A stretch of DNA of 64,000 nt from Closterium sp. NIES-65 (Eukaryota > Streptophyta > Zygnematophyceae > Desmidiales > Closteriaceae). How positions within the stretch are numbered: the stretch's first letter is position 1; each line of letters opens with the position of its first letter. This document shows, one piece after another, positions 190 through 59,700 of the stretch. The stretch is from assembly GCA_948144175.1 (NCBI GenBank), contig CANXME010002517.1, forward strand, positions 1,364,001 through 1,428,000. Direction: 5' to 3'. Position numbers and translations under genes: made by a program. A model generated the notes under the pieces. That model had not been told where the DNA came from. It saw only the letters and a program-made list of their open reading frames with translations, and did no database searches.

Positions 190-436
190 CACCTGCAGGA
201 TGAATTCGTTCGACACCACAGCACCCGAATCCTCTCTCTGATGAAACGGTTTTGCACGCCCTCGGGTCAAAGCACACTCACTAACCGCATGATTATCGCT
301 TTCCCTCCCACTCCTTTCCTCCCTTCCCCCAGAACCCTCTCCCCCCTGCCGCACCTGCAGGATGAGCTCGTTGCCAACCACAGCCCCCGAGCTGCTCTCC
401 TTGAGGAAGCGCTGCCGCACGTCCTCTCGGAAGGTG
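190..436 (-). repeat. Two partial copies of ALDH exon 9 (3' half) in the intron
   Basis: On the minus strand, 358-436 reads [26 protein letters not shown] and 190-236 reads DSGAVVSNEFILQ, matching the end of exon 9 (507-656). Each copy ends in CAG followed by GT, so each keeps a potential splice donor. The intervening intron text (AGAACCCTCTCCCC on the plus strand) is also repeated, showing tandem duplication of a unit spanning the exon-intron junction. Confidence 0.85.
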
Positions 437-506
437 ATCATACTCACTAACCCAATGCCTCTCTTTCTCCCCCTTCCCCCCCAGAACCCTCTCCCCTCTC
501 CCACAC

Positions 507-3500
507 CTGCAGGATGAGCTCATTGGCCACGACAGCCCCCGAGCTGCTCTCCTTGAGGAAGCGCTGCCGCACGTCCTCCCGGGACGTGAAGACCATCACC
601 ACGAGCAGCTTGGGGCGCGCGTTGACGATTCCAATGGCCTCGTCCACTCCTGACACCTGACGATGAAAGCACAGAGAACGCACATGGGCGGGCGGAAGAT
701 CATTGGCGCTGGGATGGGGGTTGAGATGCTTGGAGCCCGCGCATTGATGAGGCTTGAGTCATCCTCGTGGATTCCTCACACCTGATGGGGGTGAGGGAGG
801 GGGGAGAAGAAGGGCAGAGAAGGCACATGGGGAGACAGAAAACGACTATCATTGGGGCACGTTGATGATGCTGATGGGCTCGTCGATTCCTGACAGCTGA
901 TGGGGGCGATAAAGAGGGGGATAGCAGTGCTGTATAGGGAGAGAAAAAGCCGTGCAGGTGACACGACATGGGTACTGATGATGTGTCTGCATGAGTGCAT
1001 ATGACACGCGTAGATGGAAATAGGTGAGATGTCGTGAATGTATGGGAACGGGTGAGGGGAGCGGCAGCGGGGAGTGGAGCCAGAGATATTGGGGCTTTCA
1101 GGTTGAGACTGTGGGGAACGAGGAGGTAGGGAGAATAGACGGCTAGGATGAGGGATCTTACTGTTTGGATGGCCAGGATGGGCCCAAAGATCTCGGACTG
1201 CATGATGGGGGCATCCCAGGGCACGTTGAGCAGCAGCGTTGGGGCAAAGTACCTAGTGGGGAGGAGAGAGGGGGGGGAGAGGAGGGGGGAGGCATGGTTG
1301 CGGGGGGGAGGTGGAAAACTTGTCTCTCGGTCAGATCAAGAAGGGGCATCCCAGGGCATGTTGAGCAGCAGCGTTGGGGCAAAGAATCTGGTGCTGGGGG
1401 GGAGGGGGGGATGTGGGAGATTAAGCAGGGTGGGTGAAAGGGGGGGGGGGGGGAGGGTGGGTGTGCCGAGGAGAATTGAAGAGGAGAGGAGTTATCAGGG
1501 TAAACGAACAATTGGGTTGGCTATCAAAATAGGGTGGTGTTTTTAAGATGGTTTTTTTTTTTTGTTCTACTTTGCTTTTTTTTTGCTATCACCTTGAATC
1601 ACCTTGAATTACCTTGAATTATCTTGAATCACCTTGAATCACCTTGAATCACCTTGAATCACCTTGAATCACCTTGAATCACCTTGAATCACCTTGAATC
1701 ACCTTGAATCACCTTGAATCACCTTGAATCACCTTGAATCACCTTGAATCACCTTGAATCACCTTGAATCACCTTGAATCACCTTGAATCACCTTGAAAC
1801 ACCTTGAAACACCTCGATTCCACATCTCTCTGGCCCCTGCGGATGGCACAGGAGGAAGTGGCAGGCAGGGTACTTCAGAAGCTGTGGCAGGGTACTCCAG
1901 AAGCTGTGGCAGGGTACTCCAGAAGCTGTGGCAGGGTACTCCAGAAGCTGTGGCAGGGTACTCCAGAAGCTGTGGCAGGGTACTCCAGAAGCTGTGGCAG
2001 GGTACTCCAGAAGCTGTGGCAGGGTACTCCAGAAGCTGTGGCAGGGTACTCCAGAAGCTGTGGCAGGGTACTCCAGAAGCTGTGGCAGGGTACTCCAGAA
2101 GCTGTGGCAGGGTACTCCAGAAGCTGTGGCAGGGTACTCCAGAAGCTGTGGCAGGGTACTCCAGAAGCTGTGGCAGGGTACTCCAGAAGCTGTGGCAGGG
2201 TACTCCAGAAGCTGTGGCAGGGTACTCCAGAAGCTGTGGCAGGGTACTCCAGAAGCTGTGGCAGGGTACTCCAGAAGCTGTGGCAGGGTACTCCAGAAGC
2301 TGTGGCAGGGTACTCCAGAAGCTGTGGCAGGGTACTCCAGAAGCTGTGGCAGGGTACTCCAGAAGCTGTGGCAGGGTACTCCAGAAGCTGTGGCAGGGTA
2401 CTCCAGAAGCTGTGGCAGGGTACTCCAGAAGCTGTGGCAGGGTACTCCAGAAGCTGTGGCAGGGTACTCCAGAAGCTGTGGCAGGGTACTCCAGAAGCTG
2501 TGGCAGGGGGGAGGCTAATGGTCACCTGTGTGGACTCTCCCTGACTCAGTGGGCCTGCGTTGACTCACACTGACTCACCTCGATTCCACATCGCTCTGCC
2601 CCCCGTGCACGACACAGGAGGCGGTAGCAGGATGGTCGAGAAGCCTCTGCAGGCGGAGCAGGTGGGAGGTGTTGATGATGCGGGCGAGGTCAGGGCACCC
2701 AGCGGGGTTGCTGCCGTAAAACTGCTCCACGGCTGCCTTCAGATGGGGCAGCTGTGGGGGGGCGCGAGAGAGGAGAGAGGGCAGAGAGAAGACACGAGAG
2801 AGGAGATTCAAAGAACAGGAGCGAGGCGGGCAGAGAGCGGAGTTGCAATAGAAAGGCTCCAGGAACACCTGCCCTCCCCTTTTTCCCGCATTCCCGTGCC
2901 CCAATACCTTTTTCTCCCTATCTCTGCACCTTCCGCCCCTATTCTGCCCCTTCTCCCCCGCGCACCAGTCTATAGTCGGGCACAAGGCACACCTGCTCAT
3001 ACCTTCCATTCCTCTTACCGCTCTGCCCCTCTTACAACCCCCTTATACCGGCCCCCAGACGCACCAGTCTTGCAGCCACGTCCTTGGTGGCGCGGATATA
3101 GTCTGGCTCCAGGCACACCTGCCTCATTTTATCCTACTTCCCTTTCCCACACACCTGCGCCCTTTGCCTCGCCCCAATCCCTGCCCTTTCGCCCCGTCTC
3201 CCCCTCTCACCAGCCGCGCAGCAACGTCCTTGGACGCCAGAATGTAGTCGGGCAGGAGGCACACCTGCGGTCCCTTCCGTCCCTCTTACCGCTCTGCACC
3301 TCTTTCAACCTCCTCTAGACGAACCAGCCGCGCAGCAACGTCCTTGGAGGCGAGAATGTAGTCGGGCAGGAGGCACACCTGCCCCGTGTTCGTGCACTTG
3401 CCCGATACGATCCGCCTTGCTGACACCTGAGCATATGGCACGGCGCATGGGGTATGGGGCACGGTGCATGGGGCATGGGTCATGGGGCAATGGGCATGGC

Positions 3501-6500
3501 CCAAAGCATCAAGCACGGGGGGTGCATGGGGCATGGAGCATGGGATGGGGCACGGGTGGAGCATTTTAGAAAGCACACCTGCAAAGGATTCAGTACATTG
3601 GGTGAACTCACGAGTGCGGTGAGGGGCGTGACGCATTGGTGAATGTGAGGGGCGTGACGCATTGGTGCATGTGTCGCATGCATGCACATTGCGAGAAGGG
3701 GTGGGAGGCTTGGGAAAAAGGGGTGTCGCATGTGCCGTGTGGCATGTGCCATGGGGTATGCACCACCATGTGGCATGTGCCATGAGACATGGGGCATGCA
3801 TTCACATTGCATTTGAGACAGTAGCACACACCTCCAGGTCAGCAGCACACACCTCCAGGTCAGCAGCACACACCTCCAGGTCAGCAGCACACACCTCCAG
3901 GTCAGCAGCACACACCTCCAGGTCGGCAGCACACACCTCCAGGTCAGCGGACTCGTCGATGAACAGTGGATTTTTGCCGCCCAGCTCCAGAGTGACAGGT
4001 GTCAAATGCTTACTGGCCGCCTACATCACAATGCGCCCCAGTGCCGTGCCACCTGTAAAGAAGATTTTATCCCACCGCCGCCCCAGCAGCGCCTTGCCTG
4101 TCTCTGGGCCGCCTTCCACCACCTGCTGATTTCACAGCAGGGGCACGGGCAGAGGGGGGGAAAGAACAAGGAAAGAAGGGAGGGCGGGGGGTAGAAGCAC
4201 ATGGGGAGAGAGAGAGAGAGCGAGGGTGAGCTTTTGGGGCGGTCTAGATTTCCTCTGCCTGGACCGCCTTTGACTGCGTGAAGACTGTTGGGTGGAGTGC
4301 AGTGCAGAGGCGGTTCCAATCAATCCCTGCCTGTGCCTGGCCCCCCTTCCCCTTGTGCCCCCTCCCACACCGGCAAGGGGGGGGGGGTTGGGGAAGAAGG
4401 GGGGTGGGGAAGAAGGGGGTTGGGGAAGAAGGGGGGTGGGGAAGAAGGGGGTTGGGGAAGAAGGGGGGTGGGGAAGAAGGGGGTTGGGGAAGAAGGGGGT
4501 TGGGGAAGAAGGGGGTTGGGGAAGAAGGGGGTTGGGGAAGAAGGGGGTTGGGGAAGAAGGGGGTTGGGGATGAGAGCGAACCGCAGGGATGTGCTGCTGC
4601 CTGCACGTGCACGCGTCGCCCCTTGTGTCACTCTGAGCGCACTGCAGGCGTTCGTAAGGGTGTGGGATGGGATTCCACGAAATCCTATCTACATATAAAC
4701 CGCGCGTGAGAAGTCTAGATTTGAGGCGCCTCAATACTAGGTCTGTGTGGGAGAAGGTTCAAGGCGGACGTTCTTAAGGGTTTGGGATTCCAGGAAACGG
4801 AATGGGAGAGTTCGCCACAACAGCACCTGTAACACTTGGCATTTGTAACCATGAATTATACTGCCTGCTGTTGTACCACAAAGAACCTTCCTCGAATACA
4901 CTTGGCTCAAATGACACCTGCCGCAGATAGCACCTGCCTGAGATAGCACCTGGCGTGGATAACACCTGCCTGAGATAGCACCTGGCGTGGATAGCACCTG
5001 CCTGAGATAGCACCTGGCGTGGATAGCACCTGCCTGAGATAGCACCTGGCGTGGATAGCACCTGCCTGAGATAGCACCTGGCGTGGATAGCACCTGCCTG
5101 AGATAGCACCTGGCGTGGATAGCACCTGCCTGAACGGCGTGCGAGTCGAGGTAGAGGGGGAGGAGGCGCGAGAGCAGGTGCGAGCAGGCGGGGGAGAGCT
5201 CTGAGGGCTTCAGCACCGCCACGTTGCCCGCTGCTAGCGCCCCCACTAGCGGCTCCAGAGACAGCACTGAGAGATGGAAACACACACGAGATAGAGCGGA
5301 GAGGAGAGATGGCACCATGAGAGCTCCTCTGAGGGCCTCAGCACCGCTGCGTTGCCCGCTTCTAGCGCTCCCACTAGTGGCTCCAGAGACAGCACTGAGA
5401 GATGGAAACACACACGAGATAGAGCGGAGAGGAGAGATGGCACCATGAGAGCTCCTCTGAGGGCCTCAGCACCGCTGCGTTGCCCGCTTCTAGCGCTCCC
5501 ACTAGCGGCTCCAGAGACAGCACTGAGAGATGGAAACACACACGAGATAGAGCGGAGAGGAGCGATGGCACCATGAGAACTCCTCTGAGGGCCTCAGCAC
5601 CGCTGCGTTGCCCGCTTCTAGCGCTCCCACTAGCGGCTCCAGAGACAGCACTGAGAGATGGAAACACACACGAGATAGAGCGGAGAGAGATGGCACCATG
5701 AGAGCTCCTCTGAGGGCCTCAGCACCGCTGCGTTGCCCGCTTCTAGCGCTCCCACTAGCGGCTCCAGAGACAGCACTGAGAGGGGTAGACATGGAGAGGA
5801 GAAGAGAGGAGAGGGAGGGAGAAGGAGAATGCTGGGAGTGCTGTGAAGTGAATGCACAGAACGAACAGGAACCGGATACAGAAAGTTGAGCGGTGCCAAG
5901 TCAAACGACTTGGAGGTCCAAAGCAGAGCAATCCAGAAAAGAACAGAAGGCAGAAGAAAGGGGGGTGGGAAAGGGACGTACGGAAGGGGAAGTTCCAGAG
6001 GGCGAGATGATGAGCACCACGCCCAGTGAACAGCAGCGAGGTGCCATGACATGACATTTACACGACGTGCTCCATAGGGGGGAGTTGTAAGGAGAAGCGG
6101 TGGAGAAGTTGTAAGGAGAAGCGGTGGGGAGGGGACGTACGAAAGGGGAAGTTCCAGGGCGAGATGATGAGCACCACGCCCAGCGGCTCATACAGCACCT
6201 CTGACCGCCCTGGCCTCAACAACAGCGGCGTGCCCACCTGGTGGCGGGGAAAGGGGAGGGGGGGGGGGGAGTTAACGACCAGACGCGCGTGGAGGCGTCA
6301 CAAGAGAGGAAAGAGCCACTCCTCTGCTGCGTCATTTGACCGGTCAGCCCACCAGTCACGTCAGCTCGCATTGAGGCACGTCAGCTCGCATTGAGGCACG
6401 TCAGCTCGAATTGAGGCACGTCAGCTCGCATTGAGGCACGTCAGCTCGCATTGAGGCGCGTCAGCTCGCATTGAGGCGCGTCAGCTCGCATTGAGGCACG

Positions 6501-7661
6501 TCAGCTCGCATTGAGGCGCGTCAGTGCAACACTCGCTCCCACCCACTCCAAGGATGCCCCACCCCTATGCCCTCCCCTCTCCCCACCCACCTCCCCCCCC
6601 TATCCAAGGCCCCAATCCCCGCCGACCCAAGCCCCCTCTTCCCCAGCCACCGGGCGCACCTTGTGCGGTTGCAGCCATTTCTTGAAGTGCTTCAGCATGT
6701 GACTCGCCGCCTTCCACACGCCCAGCACCTGCGCGCGGTTGGGTTGGGTCGAGGGGGTGAGTGGGTGGGAAGAAGAGCAGCAATATTCAATACAGGTCAC
6801 TTCAACCATGAGATCACCACGGTCCACATGCCCCGCACCTGCAGGCGGATTGGGCTGGGTGGGTTGAGTGGGAGCAGGAAGACGGCTGTCAGAGAACTGT
6901 GCAATGCAAATGCAGGTTGCAGATGACTAGGCGCATGGCACCCGCACAGCGAGCGGATTTGGTTGGGGATGATGCATGCTAGTTCCCAATCGGAGGCGGG
7001 TGGCAGGATGAGAGGGAAGGCCGGCCAACATGTCACTCATTCGGCCACGTGTCAAGTTCTCATTCGTGGCGCTTTGCTCCCAGACGTGTCAAGAGCCCGC
7101 GGTGGTACTAGCACTACCTCAATGAGGGCCTCCATGCGACCGCGCCGGTCGGTTGGCGTTGAGCATTGAGAGCCGCCATCATGCCGCCCTTCCGCCATGC
7201 CGCCCATCAGACGCCCATCGCGCACCAGATGCCCACCGCCCATCAGACGCCGTACCTCTATGAGGGCCTCCATGCGGCCGCGTCCCAGGTCGGCGTTGAG
7301 CGCCGCCATCATGTCGTCCTCGTGCTCCTCCGCCATGCGCACCACACAAGCATCACATGCGCACTCTCTCTTTATCAACGCCCCACACCCATTGCCACAC
7401 CTCTATGAGAGCCTCCATGCGGCCGCGGCCTAGATCCGCCTTGAGCGCCGCCATCATGTCGTCCTCGTGCTCCTCCGCCATGCGCACCACATTGCGCAGC
7501 TGCTGCTCGCGCCACGCCAAGCTCCGCGTCTCGCCCGACCGGAACTTCAGACGAAGCTTTGCCAGGAGGTTCTCCGCGGCGGCGTCGTCAAAGGTCTCGC
7601 CTTTCCTGCCGCCTTCCTCCGCGCACGCCGCCGCGCTGCCGCCCTGGTACGGCCGCTCCAT
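507..7661 (-). CDS. ALDH3: Aldehyde dehydrogenase family 3, nine exons, 3' end outside window, in-frame TAG
   Basis: NAD(P)-dependent oxidation of fatty or aromatic aldehydes is the usual role of ALDH3. I assign exons (5' to 3') at 7401-7661, 6660-6728, 6141-6237, 5130-5266, 3937-4122, 3325-3426, 2579-2751, 1162-1252 and 507-656; phases join and give about 422 codons of a usual ~480. The start is the ATG at 7661-7659. Visible motifs: PWNFPF with the oxyanion Asn (exon 3), [11 protein letters not shown] (exon 4), FFTGG and TLELGGK with the general-base Glu (exon 5), GQVC with the catalytic Cys (exon 6), [10 protein letters not shown] (exon 8). The C-terminal GGVG region is not in the window. 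Intron 4 appears to use a GC donor (CAG|GCAGGT). Exon 5 contains an in-frame TAG at 4023-4021, just before AASKHLTPV, so this allele may be a pseudogene unless it is a sequence error or read through. Introns are full of exon-fragment copies and minisatellites. Family call is firm; function of this copy is not. Confidence 0.88.
730..898 (-). repeat. Two decayed copies of ALDH exon 9 (5' part)
   Basis: Minus-strand text from 898 to 851 reads [14 protein letters not shown] and from 784 to 730 is a more diverged version; both resemble the start of exon 9 ([16 protein letters not shown]). Both lie upstream of the real exon in the intron and are preceded by a CAG or CAGG acceptor-like context. Confidence 0.75.
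1340..1392 (-). repeat. Partial copy of ALDH exon 8 (5' half)
   Basis: The minus strand reads [15 protein letters not shown], a near match to the beginning of exon 8 ([15 protein letters not shown] at 1252 downwards). It lies about 90 bases upstream of the real acceptor and then runs into unrelated intron. Confidence 0.85.
1592..1808. repeat. 10-bp minisatellite (CACCTTGAAT)
   Basis: About 21 head-to-tail copies of a 10-bp unit, nearly all identical, with variants only at the two ends. Lies in ALDH intron 7. Confidence 0.97.
1811..1862 (-). repeat. Copy of ALDH exon 7 3' end with splice donor
   Basis: The text GATGTGGAATCGAG followed by GTG on the minus strand repeats the end of exon 7 at 2579-2592. 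The rest of the copy (a cacaggaggaag stretch on the plus strand) also matches exon 7 loosely. It sits between two minisatellites. Confidence 0.75.
1866..2508. repeat. 22-bp minisatellite, about 29 copies
   Basis: The unit GGTACTCCAGAAGCTGTGGC plus AG repeats almost perfectly for about 640 bp. Since 22 is not a multiple of 3, three frames of both strands stay open and give spurious long ORFs. It is inside ALDH intron 7. Confidence 0.97.
2965..3266 (-). repeat. Three extra copies of the catalytic-Cys part of ALDH exon 6
   Basis: The minus strand repeats the second half of exon 6 ([19 protein letters not shown]): a near-perfect copy at about 3207-3266 with donor GTGAGA, a diverged copy at about 3062-3115 ([18 protein letters not shown]), and a shortened one at about 2966-2992 (VCLVPDYRL). 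Each starts after CAG and is followed by GT. They could act as alternative exons, since the exon 6 to 7 junction has the same phase. Confidence 0.85.
3430..3560. repeat. CATGGGGCATGGG-type low-complexity tract
   Basis: Irregular short repeats built on CATGGGGC/CATGGG on the plus strand, directly upstream of ALDH exon 6 in the intron. A related CATGTGCCATG-rich stretch follows at about 3660-3810. Confidence 0.8.
3831..3955 (-). repeat. 21-bp tandem repeat of the ALDH exon 5 splice donor
   Basis: Six copies of a 21-bp unit read in frame as AADLEVC on the minus strand. Each contains GACCTGGAG|GTGTGT, the sequence that ends exon 5 at 3937. Because the unit is a multiple of three, use of any of these donors would keep frame and add seven residues per unit. 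Confidence 0.92.
4376..4572. repeat. 17-bp G-rich minisatellite
   Basis: About eleven copies of GGGGAAGAAGGGGGTTG and a GGGTGGGG variant, in ALDH intron 4. The G-run density makes G-quadruplex formation plausible; this is inference. Confidence 0.95.
4918..5130 (-). repeat. 32-bp tandem repeat of the ALDH exon 4 donor region
   Basis: About six to seven copies of a 32-bp unit on the minus strand, each with TCAGGCAGGTGCTATC, the same context as the exon 4 end (TTCAG then GCAGGT at 5130). The array therefore multiplies the splice-donor context as well as intron sequence. Confidence 0.9.
5285..5790 (-). repeat. Four tandem 125-128-bp copies of the ALDH exon 4 acceptor and 5' half
   Basis: Each unit contains polypyrimidine-like intron text, CAG, then coding text [24 protein letters not shown], matching the start of the real exon 4 at 5266 ([24 protein letters not shown]). 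The upstream copies are more similar to each other than to the exon, as expected for recent unequal exchange. Each ends before the exon's second half. Confidence 0.92.
5983..6036 (-). repeat. Copy of ALDH exon 3 3' half with donor
   Basis: The minus strand reads LGVVLIISP and then a frame-shifted NFPF-like stretch ending at CCGTACGTCC, matching the exon 3 end and its GTACGT donor at 6141. A C or G run indel separates it from the original. Confidence 0.85.
6348..6522. repeat. 20-bp minisatellite (CACGTCAGCTCGCATTGAGG)
   Basis: About nine copies with A/G variation (GCACGTCAG/GCGCGTCAG), in ALDH intron 2. No coding reading is supported. Confidence 0.93.
6797..6840 (-). repeat. Diverged copy of ALDH exon 2 5' part with acceptor
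   Basis: After CTGCAG on the minus strand the text GTGCGGGGCATGTGGACC resembles the exon 2 start (GTGCTGGGCGTGTGGAAG at 6728). A fainter trace may lie at 6925-6955. Confidence 0.65.
7111..7350 (-). repeat. Two copies of ALDH exon 1 3' end in intron 1
   Basis: At 7253-7345 the minus strand reads [29 protein letters not shown] followed by GT, nearly identical to the end of exon 1 (7401-7661). At 7115-7200 a more decayed copy ends RGRMEALIE followed by GT. Intron text between copies is also shared. Confidence 0.9.
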
Positions 7662-47270: not shown

Positions 47271-48317
47271 TCCTACCTTAGGACCGTTGTCTGGGCCCAC
47301 CGACGCGCGCCCCGAGGCGCGCCCTTTTTTTTTAGCGACCCCTCGGGTCGCCTTTTCACTCGCGGCCCCGCCGCCTCCTCTGACGCGGCTTTGCCGCCTC
47401 CCCTGACGCCGCCCAGCCGCCTCCCTTGACGCGGCCCTGCCGCCTCTTTTAACGCGGCCCCGCCGCCTCCCTTGACGCGGCCCTGCCGCCTCCCTTGACG
47501 CGGCCCCGCCGCCTCCCTTGACGCGGCCCCGCCGCCTCCCCTGACGCGGCTCCGCCGCCTCCCCTGACGAGGCCCCGCCGCCTCCATTGAAGCGGTCCCG
47601 CCGCCTCCCCTGACGCGGCCACGCCGCCTCCTCTGACGCGGCCCCGCCTCTGCTGCCGACGGCCCCACCGCTGCACCCTGCCGGCCCGTCGCTGCACCCT
47701 GCCGGCCCGCCGCTGCACCCTGCCGGCCCGCCGCTGCACCCTGCCGGCCCGCCGCTGCACCCTGCCGGCCCGCCGCTGCACCCTGCCGGCCCGCCGCTGC
47801 ACCCTGCCGGCCCGCCGCTGCTCCTGCCGGCCCGCCGCTGCACCTACCGGCCCGCCGCTGCACCCATCGGCCCGCCGCCTCTTACGGCCCGCCACTTGCA
47901 CCTGCCGGCCCGCCGCTGCACCTGCCGGCCCGACGCTGCACCTGCCGGCCCGACGCTGCATCTCCCGGCCGAGCCGCCCCAGCCGCCGAGCCGCCCGGGA
48001 CCCGAGCCGCCCTGCCGCCGAGCCGCCCGGGAACCGAGCCGCCCTGCACCCGAGCCGCCCAGCCGCCGAGCCGCCCGGGAGCCGAGCCGCCCTGCACCCG
48101 AGCTGCCCAGCCGCCGAGCCGCCCGGGAGCCGAGCCGCCCTGCGCCCGAGCCGCCCAGCCGCCGAGCCGCCCGGGAGCCGAGCAGCTGTGCACCCGAGCC
48201 GCCCGGTCGCTGAGCCGCCTTTCTGCTGACTGCACGACCTGCCCTGCCTGGTGAGCACTGTCCCACTGACACTGCGAGCTCTTTCCCTACTGCTTGCACT
48301 GCGTCGCTGTCGTCACC
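47271..48317 (+). repeat. GC-rich tandem leader of Copia D
   Basis: A GCGCGCCCCGAGGCGCGCC hairpin at about 47305-47324, then CGCCGCCTCCCTTGACGCGG units (47360-47650), CACCCTGCCGGCCCGCCGCTG units (47660-47950) and CCGAGCCGCCCGGGAGCCGA units (47960-48215). No AUG-led conserved protein. Copia E has the same three blocks in different copy number. A role in RNA structure, packaging or translation is inference. Confidence 0.9.
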
Positions 48318-51300
48318 ATGGCTACCCCTAGTGTCCTAGCTTTTGACGCTGAGGGTCGCGCCATTGATTTTGAGGTCTGGTTAGACGACCTGCAGCTGTT
48401 CTTACAGTGCGACAGGGCTGACGACCTTTCTCTCTTTGACCTCACCTCTGGCGCCTCTCCTGCCCCTGCTGCTGATGCTGATCCCGCTGTCCGCTCTAAG
48501 TGGGCCACCCGCGATGCTGCTGCACGTCTTGCTGTGCGTCGCCACCTCCCTACCTCTGAGCGTGCGCATTTTAGTCAGTACAAGAGTGCTCAGACCTTGT
48601 ACGACGCTGTAGTTGCGCGCTACTCCTCCCCTGCCACTGCTGCACTGAGCCGTCTCATGCTTCCCTACCTCTTTCCTGACCTCTCTGCCTTTCCCACTGT
48701 CGCTGACCTCATTACGCACCTCCGCACTAGTGACACTCGCTACCGCGCCGCCCTTCCTGCTGAGTTCTGCGCTAAGAACCCCCCCCCCATGTACATCGCT
48801 CTCTACTACGTAGTCGCACGCCTCCCTGACTCCCTTCGCGTCGTCAGGGACCACTTTCTCGCAATCTGTCCCACCACTCTCACCGTCGACCTCCTCGAGA
48901 AGGCCCTCCTTGCAGCGGAGAAGAGCATAGTCGCTGTAGGTGCTTCTCGTGGTGACCCTCGCACCCCCATCTTTGAGGGGTGCTCTCCTTCCCCCTTGCT
49001 GCCCTCTGTTGCCTCTGCTGCTGCTGCCGACCTGCTTGGTCTTGAGTCGGTCGGCGCGGCGTCTGCCCCTAGTGGGAGACGTCGCTCCAGCAAGGGCAAA
49101 GGGGGCAAGGGCGCGGGTGGAGCTGGAGGGGGCGGTGGCGGTGGCGGCGGTGGCGGCGGAGGGAGTGGGGGTGGCGGCGGGGCTAGTGGCGGGGGTGGTG
49201 GTGGTGGTGGCGGCAGCAGCGGCGGAGACGGTGGTGGTGGTGCCAGCGGTGGTGGTGGAGGCAGCGGCGGAGGTGGAGGCGGCGGAGGTGGAGGCAGTGG
49301 AGGCGGCAGCGGAGGAGGCAGTAGTGGTGGAGGAGGTGGAGCTGGTCGGGGTGGTACCCAGCAGCGTAGCGGCGGTGGTGGTGGCCAGCGCTCGCACCGG
49401 CAGCAGCAGCAGCGCTCGCGGGACATCCCTTCGCCTCAGCAGCTTCGTGAGTGGTACGCTGGGCGTCAGAGGGGTGGGGGTACTGGTCCCTGCACCTACG
49501 TTCTTCGTTCCGGCGACCGCGCGGGTGAGCAGTGTGGGGGTGCCCACGCCACCCAGCGCTGCTTTGGCCGCCTGACGGACGCTTGGCGTCGGCAGTTCCC
49601 TGGGGCTAGTGAGATCCCTCGCTGGGATGAGCTTCTCAGGGCTGGTGTAGCAATCTTTGATCTTGATTTTGATGCTATCCTTACTGCTATGTATGTTGTG
49701 GATTATAGTGAGGAGAATGAGGGTTACCGGTGTTTTCAGCCCGACCCGGGCATTGGTACTGCTGCGCTAGGTGCTTGTGAGGCTGCTGCTCTAGGTGCCA
49801 GTGCGTCTGCGCTCTCAGGTACTGGTGAGACTGCGCTCTCAGGTACTGAGTCGTCCTCGTCCTCCCTCACTTTCACACTTGACTCCGGAGCTTCTCGCTC
49901 CTTCTTTCGAGACCGCACTACCCTTTCGCCGCTCGCCAGGCCGGTTGCGGTCTCCCTTGCTGACCCCTCTGGGGGTCCTGTCCTGTCTCACTTCTCCACT
50001 GTCCTCCCGTGTCCGGCTGCCCCTTCGGGCACCCTGTCGGGTCTGTACCTTCCCTCGTTCTCTACGAACTTGGTGAGTGGAGCGGACCTGCAGGATGGGG
50101 GTGTTCACCAGTTCACTCCTGCGCGTCAGAGGGTGACCCACTGCACGGAGGCTCGCACAGGCCGACACCTGGCCACGTTCTCACGTCGGCCGGGGTCGAG
50201 TCTCTACACCCTGACCGTTGAGTCTCCTCCTGTCCCTGCGTCTGGTCAGGTGGCTGCGTCGGGTCAGGTACTTGCTGCTGCGTCCTGGTCAGGTCCTGAG
50301 TCTGCCCCCTGTTCTTGTCGCCTCCTGTCTCACGAGACTCTCCTGTGGCACCACCGTCTTGGCCACCCCTCCTTGCCCCGTCTTCGGAGCATGGCTTCCC
50401 GTGTCCTTGTCTCTGGTCTTCCCCAGTCTCTCCCTCCTCTCCCCTCCGGGCCAGGACCTTCCTGTGTCCCCTGTGTCGAGGGTCGCCTCCGGGCTACTCC
50501 TCACTCCTCCCACTTCCCCCCGACAGAGGCTCCCCTGCAGACGCTTCACATGGATGTGTGGGGCCAAGCCCCCGTCCGTGGGCAGGGTTACGAGCGCTAC
50601 TTCCTGTTGGTGGTTGACGACTACTCGCGTTACACCACAGTCCTCCCCTTGCGCAGCAAGGGTGCGGTCACTGAGGTGCTGATCGACTGGATCCGCGAGG
50701 CTCGTCTCCAGCTCAGGAAGAACTTCGGCTCGGACTTTCCTGTTCCGCGTCTGCACTCTGACAGAGGCGGAGAGTTCTCTTCTCGCCTTCTGCGAGACTA
50801 CTGTCGTGCACGGGGGATCCGCCAGACCTTCACACTTCCGGACTCACCACAGCAAAATGGGATTGCTGAGCGCCGCATTGGCATGGTCATGGATGTCGCT
50901 CGTACGTCCATGATGCATGCGGCTGCCCCCCACTTTCTGTGGCCGTTTGCGGTGAGGTACGCGGCGCATCAGCTCAACCTTCACCCCCGGGTCTCTCGGC
51001 CAGCGATGTCCCCAGCCTTGCTGTGGACGGGGAAGGTTGGCGATGCGTCTGTGTTCCGTGTCTGGGGATCTCGGGCGTTTGTCCGCGACTTGTTTGCGGA
51101 CAAGCTGTCCCCTCGTGCTGCTCCCTGTGTCTTCCTTGGCTTCCCCACTGACGCCCCAGGGTGGCAGTTTTACCACCCCTCCTCTCGTCGTGTTCTGTCC
51201 TCCCAGGACGTCACGTTCGACGAGTCAGTCCCCTTCTACCGTCTCTTCCCCTACCGCACTCCTTCCCTCCCCCCTCCCCCGGACTTCCTTGTGCCGGTTC

Positions 51301-55711: not shown

Positions 55712-56792
55712 TGGTATAGAGCGGGTCCTGCCTTAGGACCGTTTTTTTAGGGCCCACCGAAGCGCGCCTCGAGGCGCGCCTTTTTTTTTAGCGACCCCTC
55801 GGGTCGCCTTTTCCCTCGCGGCCCCGCTGTCCCTCAGACGCGGCCCCGCCACCTCTCCTGATCGCGACCCCGCCGCCTGCTTGACGCGGCCCCGCCGCCT
55901 CCCCTGACGCGGCCCCGCCGCCTCCCCTGACGCGGCCCCGCCGCCTCCCCTGACGCGGCCCCGCCTCTACTGCCGCGGCCCCCCCGCCGCCTCTGACGCG
56001 GCCCTGCCGGCCCGCCGCTACACCCTACGGCCCGCCGCTACACCCTACGGCCCGCCGTCTCACCTGACGGCCCCGCCGCTGCTCCTGCCGGCCCGCTGCT
56101 GCTCCTGCCGGCCCGCCCCTGCACCTGCCGGCCCGCCGCTGCACCCAGCGGCCCGCCGCTTCACCTGACGGCCCCGCCGCTGCACCTGCCGGCCCGCCGC
56201 TGCACCCTACGGCCCGCCGCTGCACCCTACGGCCCGCCGCCTCACCTGGTCGGCCCGCCACTGCACCCTACGGCCCCGCCGCTGCACCTGCCGGCCCGCC
56301 GCTGCACCTGCCGGCCCGCCGCTGCACCTGCCGGCCCGCCGCTGCACCTTCCGGCCCGCCGCTGCACCTGCCGGCCCGCCGCTGCACCTGCCGGTCCGCC
56401 GCTGCTCCTGCCGGCCCGCCACTGCACCGGTCGACCCGCCGCTGCACCTGACGGCCCCGCCCCTGCATCTCCCGGCCGAGCCGCCCTAGCAACCGAACCG
56501 CCCGGGAGCCGAGCCGCCCAACGCCGAGCCGCCCGGGACCCGAGCCGCCCTGCCGCCGAGCCGCCCGGGAGCCGAGCCGCCCTGCCGCCGAGCCGCCCGG
56601 GAGCCGGGCCGCCCTGCGCCCGAGCCGCCCAGCCACCGAGCCGCCCGGGAGCCGAGCCGCTGTGCACCCGAGCCGCCCGGTCGCTGAGCCGCCTTTCTGC
56701 AGAGCTGCACGACCTGCCCTGCCTGGTGAGCACAGTCCCACTAACACTGCGAGCTCTTTCCCTACTACTTGCACTGCGTCGCTGTCGTCACC
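55712..56792 (+). repeat. GC-rich tandem leader of Copia E
   Basis: The hairpin GCGCGCCTCGAGGCGCGCC (about 55761), then CGCCGCCTCCCCTGACGCGG, TGCACCTGCCGGCCCGCCGC and CCGAGCCGCCCGGGAGCCGA blocks. Same order as in D with different copy numbers. Confidence 0.9.
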
Positions 56793-59700
56793 ATGGCTAC
56801 CCCTAGTGTCCTAGCTTTCGACGCTGAGGGTCGCGCCATTGATTTTGAGGTCTGGTTAGACGACCTGCAGCTGTTCTTACAGTGCGACAGGGCAGACGAC
56901 CTTTCTCTCTTTGACCTCACCTCTGGCGCCTCTCCTTCTCCTGCTGCTGATGCTGATCCCTCTGTCCGCTCTCAGTGGGCCACCCGCGATGCTGCTGCAC
57001 GTCTTGCTGTGCGTCGCCACCTCCCTACCTCTGAGCGTGCGCACTTCAGCCAGTACAAGAGTGCTCAGACCTTGTACGACGCTGTAGTTGCGAGCTACTC
57101 CTCCCCTGCCACTACTGCACTGAGCCGTCTCATGCTTCCCTACCTCTTTCCTGACCTCTCTGCCTTTCCCACTATTGCTGACCTCATTACGCACCTCCGC
57201 ACTAGTGACACTCGCTACCGCGCCGCCCTTCCTGCTGAGTTCTGCGCTAAGAACCCCCCCCCCATGTACATCGCTCTCTACTACGTAGTCGCGCGCCTCC
57301 CTGACTCCCTTCGCGTCGTCAGGGACCACTTTCTCGCTGTCTGTCCCACCACCCTCACCGTCGACCTCCTCGAGAAGGCCCTCCTCGCAGCGGAGAAGCA
57401 CATCGTCGCTGTAGGTGCTTCTCGTGGTGACCCTCGCACCCCCGTCTTTGAGGGGTGCTCTCCTTCCCCCTTGCTGCCCTCTGTTGCCTCTGCTGCTGCT
57501 GCCGACCTGCTTGGTCTTGAGTCGGTCGGCGCGGCGTCTACCCCTAGTGGGAGACGTCGCTCTAGCAAGGGCAAGGGGGGCAAGGGCGCGGGTGGAGCTG
57601 GAGGGGGCGGTGGCGGTGGCGGCGGTGGCGGCGGAGGGAGTGGGGGTGGTGGCGGGACTAGTGGCGGGGGTGGTGGTGGTGGTGGTGGCAGCAGCGGCGG
57701 AGACGGTGGTGGTGGTGCCAGCGGTGGTGGTGGAGGCAGCGGCGGAGGTGGAGGCGGCGGAGGTGGAGGCGGTGGAGGCGGCAGCAGAGGAGGTGGTGGT
57801 GGTGGAGGAGGTGGAGCTGGTCGGGGTGGTACCCAGCAGCGTAGCGGCGGTGGTGGTGGCCAGCGCTCGCAGCGGCAGCAGCAGCAGCGCTCGCGGGACA
57901 TCCCTCCGCCTCAGCAGCTTCGTGAGTGGTACGCTGGGCGTCAGAGGGGTGGGGGTACTGGTCCCTGCACCTACGTTCTTCGTTCCGGCGACCGCGCGGG
58001 TGAGCAGTGTGGGGGTGCCCACGCCACCCAGCGCTGCTTTGGCCGCCTGACGGACGCTTGGCGTCGGCAGTTCCCTGGGGCTAGTGAGATCCCTCGCTGG
58101 GAGGAGCTTCTTAGGGCTGGTGTAGCGATCTTTGATCTTGATTTTGATGCTATCCTTGCTGCTATGTATGCTGTGGATTATAGTGAGGAGAATGAGGGTT
58201 ACCGGTGTTTCCAGCCCGACCCGGGCATTGGTACTGCTGCGCTAGGTGCTTGTGAGGCTGCTGCTCTAGGTGCCAGTGCGTCAGCGCTCTCAGGTACTGG
58301 TGAGACTGCGCTCTCAGGTACTGCGTCGTCCTCGTCCTCCCTCACTTTCACACTTGACTCCGGGGCTTCTCGCTCCTTCTTTCGAGACCGCACTACCCTT
58401 ACGCCGCTCGGCCGGCCGGTTGCGGTCTCCCTTGCTGACCCCTCTGGGGGTCCTGTCCTGTCTCACTTCTCCACTGTCCTCCCGTGTCCGGCTGCTCCTT
58501 CGGGCACCCTGTCGGGTCTGTACCTTCCCTCGTTCTCTACGAACTTGGTGAGTGGAGCGGACCTGCAGGATGTGGGGGTTCACCAGTTCACTCCTGCGAG
58601 TCAGCGGGTGACCCACTGCACGGAGGCACGCACAGGCCGACACCTGGCCACGTTCTCGCGTCGGCCGGGGTCGAGTCTCTACACCCTGACCGTTGAGTCT
58701 CCTCCTGTCCCTGCGTCTGGTCATGTGGCTGCGTCGGGTCAGGTGCTTGCTGCTGCGTCCCGGTCAGGTCCTGAGTCTGCTCCCTGTTCTTGTCGCCTCC
58801 TGTCTCACGAGACTCTCCTTTGGCACCACCGTCTTGGCCACCCCTCCTTGCCCCGTCTTCGGAGCATGGCTTCCCGTGTCCTTGTCTCTGGTCTTCCCCA
58901 GTCTCTCCCTCCTCTCCCCTCCGGGCCAGGACCTTCCTGTGTCCCCTGTGTCGAGGGTCGCCTCTGGGCCACTCCTCACTCCTCCCACTTCCCCCCGACA
59001 GAGGCTCCCCTGCAGACGCTTCACATGGATGTGTGGGGCCCAGCCCCCGTCCGTGGGCAGGATTACGAGCGCTACTTCCTGTTGGTGGTTGACGACTACT
59101 CGCGTTACACCACAGTCCTTCCCTTGCGCAGCAAGGGCGCGGTCACTGAGGTGCTGATCGACTGGATCCGCGCAGCTCGTCTCCAGCTCAGGAAGAGCTT
59201 CGGCTCGGACTTTCCTGTTCTGCGTCTGCACTCGGACAGAGGCGGAGAGTTCTCCTCTGGCCTTCTGCGTGCCTACTGTCGTGCGCGAGGCATCCGCCAG
59301 TCCTTCACGCTTCCGGACTCACCACAGCAAAATGGGATTGCTGAGCGCCGCATTGGCATGGTCATGGATGTCGCTCGTACGTCCATGATGCATGCGGCTG
59401 CCCCCCATTTACTGTGGCCGTTTGCTGTCAGGTACGCGACGCATCAGCTCAACCTTCACCCCCGGGTCTCTCGGCCTGCGATGTCCCCAGCCCTGCTGTG
59501 GACGGGGAAGGTTGGCGATGCGTCTGTGTTCCGTGTCTGGGGATCTCGAGCGTTTGTCCGCGACCTTTCTGCGGACAAGCTGTCCCCTCGTGCCGCTCCC
59601 TGTGTCTTCCTTGGCTTCCCCACTGACGCCCCAAGGTGGCAGTTTTACCACCCCTCCTCTCGTCGTGTTCTGTCCTCCCAGGACGTCACGTTCGACGAGT

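Follow-up and report, generated by a model that had tools for sequence, protein, structure and literature searches.

Partial copies of exon ends in the introns of an ALDH3 gene and other genes of Closterium sp. NIES-65

Exon-end copies in the ALDH3 gene of the window

We analyzed a stretch of 64,000 nucleotides (the window) that covers contig positions 1364001-1428000 (contig CANXME010002517.1) in the 874-Mb (megabase) assembly of the zygnematophycean alga Closterium sp. NIES-65. The beginning of the window carries an ALDH3 gene, here called W, whose introns hold partial copies of the ends of the neighboring exons. Among the 12 best family-search candidates that were scored, at least four ALDH3 copies were recognized in the NIES-65 genome, and these form two near-identical pairs: W with C (contig C1900), and A (contig C741) with B (contig C1946). 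The available text of PMC10407611 describes extensive gene copy-number variation in this strain complex, and we therefore label the members of each pair as duplicates, perhaps alleles. Gene A has ten exons and an uninterrupted product of 502 amino acids (aa). Residues 13-366 of a 393-residue piece of this product (exons 3-10) matched a solved aldehyde dehydrogenase at 352 bits, and ALDH3-class (class 3, dimeric NADP-preferring) enzymes were a close second to the best solved-structure match.

The first nine exons of W and their phases are those of A, with an exon identity of 88-94%. We set the exons of W by translation, phase and splice sites, and their lengths and joins are consistent, as judged by eye, with orthologs of 501-502 aa in other Closterium strains:

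7401..7661, minus strand: exon 1
6660..6728, minus strand: exon 2
6141..6237, minus strand: exon 3
5130..5266, minus strand: exon 4
3937..4122, minus strand: exon 5, with an in-frame TAG at 4021-4023
3325..3426, minus strand: exon 6
2579..2751, minus strand: exon 7
1162..1252, minus strand: exon 8
507..656, minus strand: exon 9

Exon 10 is located past the window edge. The donor of intron 4 (window position 5130) seems to be GC (CAG|GCAGGT), in A likewise, and both the reading frame and the relatives of 501-502 aa agree with this. W is broken by the TAG in exon 5 and by a damaged last exon with stops, and C has the same TAG and a disrupted last exon. Because the closest relative of W in Closterium sp. 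NIES-53 (protein P0004) is intact, W appears to be a recently broken gene.

The copies and arrays that adjoin these exons are listed below, with the identity or score of each match.

7256..7346, minus strand: copy of the exon 1 3' end with GT, in intron 1 (BLAST, 93%)
7118..7190, minus strand: second, more diverged copy of the exon 1 3' end with GT (BLAST, 73%)
6800..6838, minus strand: weak, borderline copy of the exon 2 5' end (score 26, best of 60 shuffles 24)
5984..6026, minus strand: copy of the exon 3 3' end with GTACGT (BLAST, 95%)
5327..5775, minus strand: four tandem copies of the exon 4 5' end with the end of intron 3, unit of about 128 bp (BLAST, 91-93%)
5708-5775, 5583-5650, 5455-5522 and 5327-5394, minus strand: the exon 4 start copies individually (BLAST, 91-93%)
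4915..5133, minus strand: 16/32-bp minisatellite from the exon 4 donor, intronic and almost without exon content (tandem-repeat listing)
3819..3948, minus strand: 21-bp tandem array over the exon 5 donor, with units that hold GACCTGGAG|GTGTGT (tandem-repeat listing)
3211..3268, minus strand: copy 1 of the exon 6 3' end, with a copy at the matching place in A too (BLAST, 97%)
3072..3123, minus strand: copy 2 of the exon 6 3' end (BLAST, 83%)
2973..2996, minus strand: copy 3 of exon 6, short (BLAST, 92%)
1813..1865, minus strand: copy of the exon 7 3' end with GT (BLAST, 81%)
1343..1384, minus strand: copy of the exon 8 5' end with AG (BLAST, 98%)
854..895, minus strand: copy of the exon 9 5' end with AG (BLAST, 79%)
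355..437, minus strand: copy 1 of the exon 9 3' end (BLAST, 92%)
193..263, minus strand: copy 2 of the exon 9 3' end with GT (BLAST, 74%)

We compared the best match of each exon in the adjoining intron with 60 dinucleotide shuffles per exon side. In W, 10/18 exon sides beat every shuffle, one of which (upstream of exon 5, 26 bp, exon interior) looks like chance. These results confirm that the exon-end copies in the adjoining introns of W are real. A sequence-only reading of the window had placed copies beside all of exons 1-9. For seven of these exons the claim holds far beyond chance, and the copy assigned to exon 2 is only borderline. At exon 4, the copies of the 5' end stand, but the array at 4918-5130 starts at the donor and has almost no exonic content. 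The copies claimed for exon 5 are units of a 21-bp minisatellite with about 15 exonic bases each, and this donor side fell below the shuffle threshold (score 24, best shuffle 25).

Recurrence in other genes

In the intact paralog A, 15/20 exon sides beat all 60 shuffles; among these are nine of nine donor sides and the one beyond the stop codon. The phenomenon is thus stronger in A than in W, where 10/18 sides passed. The pattern was also found in seven chaperonin-family loci, which were identified through PF00118 matches, and in an HSP70 gene. For the seven chaperonin-family loci together with ALDH3 A and W, we counted same-strand copies within 800 bp that were anchored no more than 30 bp from the exon end. 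Such copies were present at 58/100 exon ends, with an unanchored copy only at 4/100, and the controls gave 1/100 on the opposite strand and 3/1000 for unrelated exons. The choice of chaperonin-family loci was not blind: seven loci were taken from about eleven visible locus pairs, and L048, L049 and L052 had already shown partial repeats in the PF00118 match list before selection. These three loci had anchored copies at 18/26 exon ends, the other four chaperonin-family loci at 19/36, and the two ALDH3 genes at 21/38. Chaperonin-family exon coordinates were taken from profile matches, by which some exons were missed.

In the HSP70 gene (L058), copies adjoin 6/6 exons found, and several of them fall short of the profile-match ends. 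L058 was chosen because partial repeats were visible and was used for the HSP70, intron-fraction and repeat-pair analyses only; HSP70 loci L018-L047 were left out of all counts. In 42 introns from ten loci, with 4 others skipped, about 21% of the intron sequence (7,314/34,310 bp) could be recognized as exon-derived.

Size, composition and position of the duplicated units

We measured the distance to the source for the 82 copies that hold 40 bp of exon or more: 38 lay at 106-175 bp and none nearer, with the next at 214-275 bp and beyond. At well-placed exon ends, 23/32 nearest copies lay at 114-175 bp. This size is near that of a nucleosome or an Okazaki fragment, which is only suggestive. Young arrays repeat exon and intron together, in register, as in a 122-bp unit at exon 7 of A (five in all), a 121-bp unit at the start of exon 9 of A, a unit of about 128 bp at exon 4 of W, and a 124-bp unit with eleven upstream copies at an exon of L048. 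In copies that have diverged further, little of the intron beyond the splice dinucleotide is left. When an exon side has more than one copy, similarity usually falls with distance, with exceptions that include exon 7 of A and exon 1 of L052. Left and right copies are sometimes complementary, covering positions 1-104 and 96-210 of a 213-bp exon in L050. Some donors also carry short minisatellites with units of 16-30 bp. Duplication also affects exon 10 at its stop-codon end, and the last coding segment has one extra copy in A and six in B.

Three other origins of the copies were examined and set aside. An assembly artefact is unlikely, as the copies differ from their own exons and recur in the near-identical second gene copies on other contigs. 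Derivation from messenger RNA was ruled out, since the copies run on into GT- or AG-ended intron and not into the neighboring exon (junctions read by eye). For nesting of a whole exon in its predecessor, breakpoints seemed, by eye only, to agree no better than chance.

Nor do the duplications seem to target splice junctions. The repeat-pair test requires at least 25 bp of intron-intron similarity, which removes the edge of conserved exon sequence. Of the 24 pairs that it returned, 5 cross a junction and 2 include exon copies. The remaining 17 are intron-only, but several of these are multiples of shorter arrays, and some may contain unrecognized exons. Junction-linked pairs (7/24) stand against a 28% geometric expectation of spanning, and this rough test therefore gives no excess over geometry. 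A similar process is visible away from splice junctions, in intron-only repeat pairs at 100-185 bp offset and at the stop-codon end of exon 10. A search of 10,917 exon bp for internal repeats of at least 20 bp and at least 80% identity found none, which is what purging of coding duplications would predict.

Probable recurrent local duplication in existing introns

We think that the copies are probably scars of recurrent, local tandem duplications that straddled exon boundaries in pre-existing introns. Because young units hold exon together with adjoining intron (the 122-bp unit at exon 7 of A and the 128-bp unit at exon 4 of W), the intron was already present at duplication. Local tandem duplications of DNA, commonly of about 105-180 bp, would straddle the exon/intron boundaries of existing introns and would strike genes randomly along their length. 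We infer that duplications within coding sequence would be purged, and that those that fall within an intron, over a splice site or at the end with the stop codon would survive. The survivors may be tolerated because the authentic splice site beside the full exon still works, provided that splicing is correct. New events beside an exon would displace older copies deeper, such that introns lengthen from their ends, and ectopic gene conversion may later hold the exonic part of many copies like the exon as the flanking intron drifts. This part of the sequence-only reading is supported: introns grew through duplication of exon ends, in events of widely differing age.

Several observations weigh against this explanation. 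The 24 repeat pairs are not independent, some being multiples of shorter arrays, and three of them lie in long introns that the geometric expectation does not cover. Plain duplication followed by neutral decay also fails to account for three features of the copies: their likeness to the exon, the codon positions of their mismatches and their splice dinucleotides. An identity of 90-97% to the exon is common among the copies even where the adjoining intron is unalignable. At equal exon divergence, donor flanks have a mean score of 32 between paralogs (n=9) and of 3.9 between exon and copy (n=14), with a null of -12; acceptor flanks are similar, with means of 7.3 (n=8) and 9.8 (n=14). The exon-copy means exclude two young arrays each, donor and acceptor. 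Mismatches of chaperonin-family copies by codon position number 64, 58 and 226 (third position 226/348), and those of ALDH3 copies 29, 18 and 58. A neutral copy set against a synonymously changing exon would give at most about half third-position mismatches (chaperonin-family p 1e-8), and base composition was ruled out as the source of this bias. The splice dinucleotide is kept in 49/52 copies, and copies below 88% identity keep it in 23/23 cases against 15.6 expected (p 1e-4), although copies in this count had to reach within 8 nucleotides of the exon end, which biases retention upward.

We infer, short of proof, that ectopic gene conversion with the parent exon seems to keep the exonic part alike. 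The ratio of concerted to ancient sites, which are few, is 6:0 at exon 6, 1:0 at exon 3, and 0:0 at exon 8. The case for conversion also has its weaknesses: it rests on few sites, and the 3' end of exon 9 has one concerted site, two ancient sites and one homoplasy. The concerted counts at exon 1 (5) and at the 5' end of exon 9 (2) were dropped, as the A copies there are young arrays confined to A. The spacer beside an exon is native intron, and the spacers of two paralogs would align even if each gene had been duplicated independently at one breakpoint. The third-position bias is not predicted by simple conversion alone either.

The coding-like differences and the diverged flanks would be explained together if unequal or template-switch recombination between diverged homologs, in hybrid or duplicated genes, had put an already diverged exon end into the intron. 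Gene copy-number variation in the strain complex is extensive in the available text of PMC10407611, a diverged ALDH3 paralog pair exists, and exon-copy acceptor flanks are no more diverged than those of paralogs. However, exon-copy donor flanks are far more diverged than those of paralogs, and ALDH3 copies match their own exon at 166 sites and the paralog at 64 (array copies counted repeatedly). We regard this explanation as unlikely, with roughly a fifth of the weight.

Slightly less likely still is that selection keeps the copies as splice-competent shadow exon ends, serving as alternative, decoy or unproductive sites. The retention of GT/GC or AG in diverged copies would fit this idea, as would a match profile that drops just beyond the splice site and codon-position mismatches (7.1/5.2/19.2%) like those between paralogous genes (6.9/4.0/19.0%). 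GenBank models P0009, P0010 and P0011 (NIES-65) and P0007 (Naga37s-1) include copies, splicing exon-end copies or minisatellite units into the protein. By contrast, models P0001-P0004 of four other strains are without such insertions, and the requirement to reach within 8 nucleotides favors conserved ends. With third positions at 19%, the copies look too recent, given their unalignable flanks, to have been constrained in place. In comparisons of near-identical duplicates, 12/5,745 copy sites had changed, against 97/30,354 sites in other intron (p 0.19) and 2/5,733 in exons (p 0.013), so that the copies are near-neutral now and do not look constrained at present.

Some gene models of NIES-65 contain false exons: their proteins measure 655, 697 and 709 aa, compared with 501-502 aa for those of the four other strains. 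As judged by eye, the copy of the exon 9 start of W seems to be present in Naga37s-1 and to be included in model P0007; this copy would therefore predate the split of these strains.

Intron growth and intron birth

In the Rogers model, introns are made by tandem duplication of exonic segments that bear AGGT, and the copies would be scars of intron birth. An intron should then open with a copy of the downstream exon's start and close with a copy of the upstream exon's end. We tested 31 introns, 17 from ALDH3 and 14 from chaperonin-family genes, the ends of the latter being set by splice-site scoring, with a few weakly placed. The intron 5' end resembled the downstream exon start above the 99% null level in 0/31 introns, and the 3' end resembled the upstream exon end in 0/31. 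Copies anywhere inside the intron were present for the upstream exon end in 20/31 and for the downstream exon start in 17/31. In introns with both kinds, the upstream-end copy comes first, on the 5' side, and the downstream-start copy follows on the 3' side in 13/13, an order opposite to that of the AGGT model. From the missing birth signature and this order we conclude that the duplications post-date the introns.

The model draws support from the splice sites that the copies carry, from the tandem-duplication intron gain documented in the available text of PMC3443670 and PMC4974935, and from AG|GT exon joins at 5/8 in W and 4/9 in A. Proto-splice preference would give similar values, as it would for the 4/14 chaperonin-family exons that start with GT. 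Against it also stand the young units that already hold intron and the duplicated stop-codon end of exon 10. In addition, both paralogs have the eight introns that separate exons 1-9, and also the ninth to the extent that the broken last exon shows it, yet several copies occur in one paralog only. We consider the Rogers model very improbable here, and intron birth from an AGGT-bearing exonic duplicate, as the sequence-only reading had it, failed the sequence test. The fallback of that reading, repeated unequal exchange after intron gain, came close to right. The copies record how introns grow and not how introns are born.

Introner-like or transposon-borne insertions, for which the abundant window repeats speak alone, have next to no chance of being the source: copies are specific to the neighboring exon, and with the unrelated-exon control at 3/1000 flank tests and the opposite strand at 1/100, no introner-like family over unrelated genes was found.

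A seeming intron of L034, an HSP70 paralog on C501, has exon-end copies on both sides in the usual order, and L018-L022 are uninterrupted there. It is a possible case for dating intron gain or loss.

Relation to known systems

Tandem duplication across an intron-exon boundary is already known from the available text of PMC4974935. In that case, as in Closterium, a DNA tandem duplication carries the splice site, the polypyrimidine tract and the exon start. The outcome there was a new spliced intron, seen by RNA sequencing, whereas the Closterium copies lie inside existing introns and occur at more than half of the tested exon ends, in several unrelated genes. The Rogers model, as given in the available text of PMC3443670, shares tandem duplication near AG|GT, but there an exonic segment yields the intron, and the young Closterium units consist of exon and pre-existing intron. 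Intronic minisatellites (variable-number tandem repeats) resemble the head-to-tail arrays of 16, 21, 30 and 122-128 bp at splice sites, and also the variation in copy number between near-identical gene copies. They differ in that many of the Closterium copies occur singly or in small numbers and have kept their exon part but not its flanks.

Ectopic gene conversion between a gene and a linked pseudogene fragment leaves tract-limited similarity that ends where homology ends. The Closterium copies are likewise tract-limited and have concerted sites at exon 6, but here an exon would be paired with a piece of itself inside its own intron, with conversion suggested by few sites. Among the open-licence papers listed by our literature searches, none dealt with exon-end copies in Closterium, or at such scale elsewhere. 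The new features are the high density of copies in several unrelated genes, a characteristic unit size and an exonic part that is oddly well preserved.

Intron growth can be watched in this genome: copies of varied divergence are stacked, the units have a characteristic size, and near-identical gene duplicates carry unequal numbers of copies. Growth is now separable from intron birth, and both look alike in exon-intron similarity scans. Conversion between exon and copy, if real, would place concerted evolution in an unusual setting. Should the sampled genes be typical, it is conceivable, as a tentative extension, that boundary-crossing duplications of about 140 bp lengthen introns genome-wide and that a pool of copies with working splice sites keeps exchanging with the live exon. 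Exons and introns would then co-evolve concertedly within single genes, and introns would be archives of earlier exon ends.

Additional observations

In intron 7 of W, a 22-bp minisatellite has 29 copies (1864-2508), and in the near-identical C1900 gene the corresponding array has about 46. In A (C741), reading frames of a hAT-type transposon (DUF659, Dimer_Tnp_hAT) lie between exon 2 copies in intron 2. Elsewhere in the window, at 47361-49333 and 55817-57830, lie two copies of a repeat-rich unit whose tandem repeats follow a similar series; this may be a mobile element that was duplicated.

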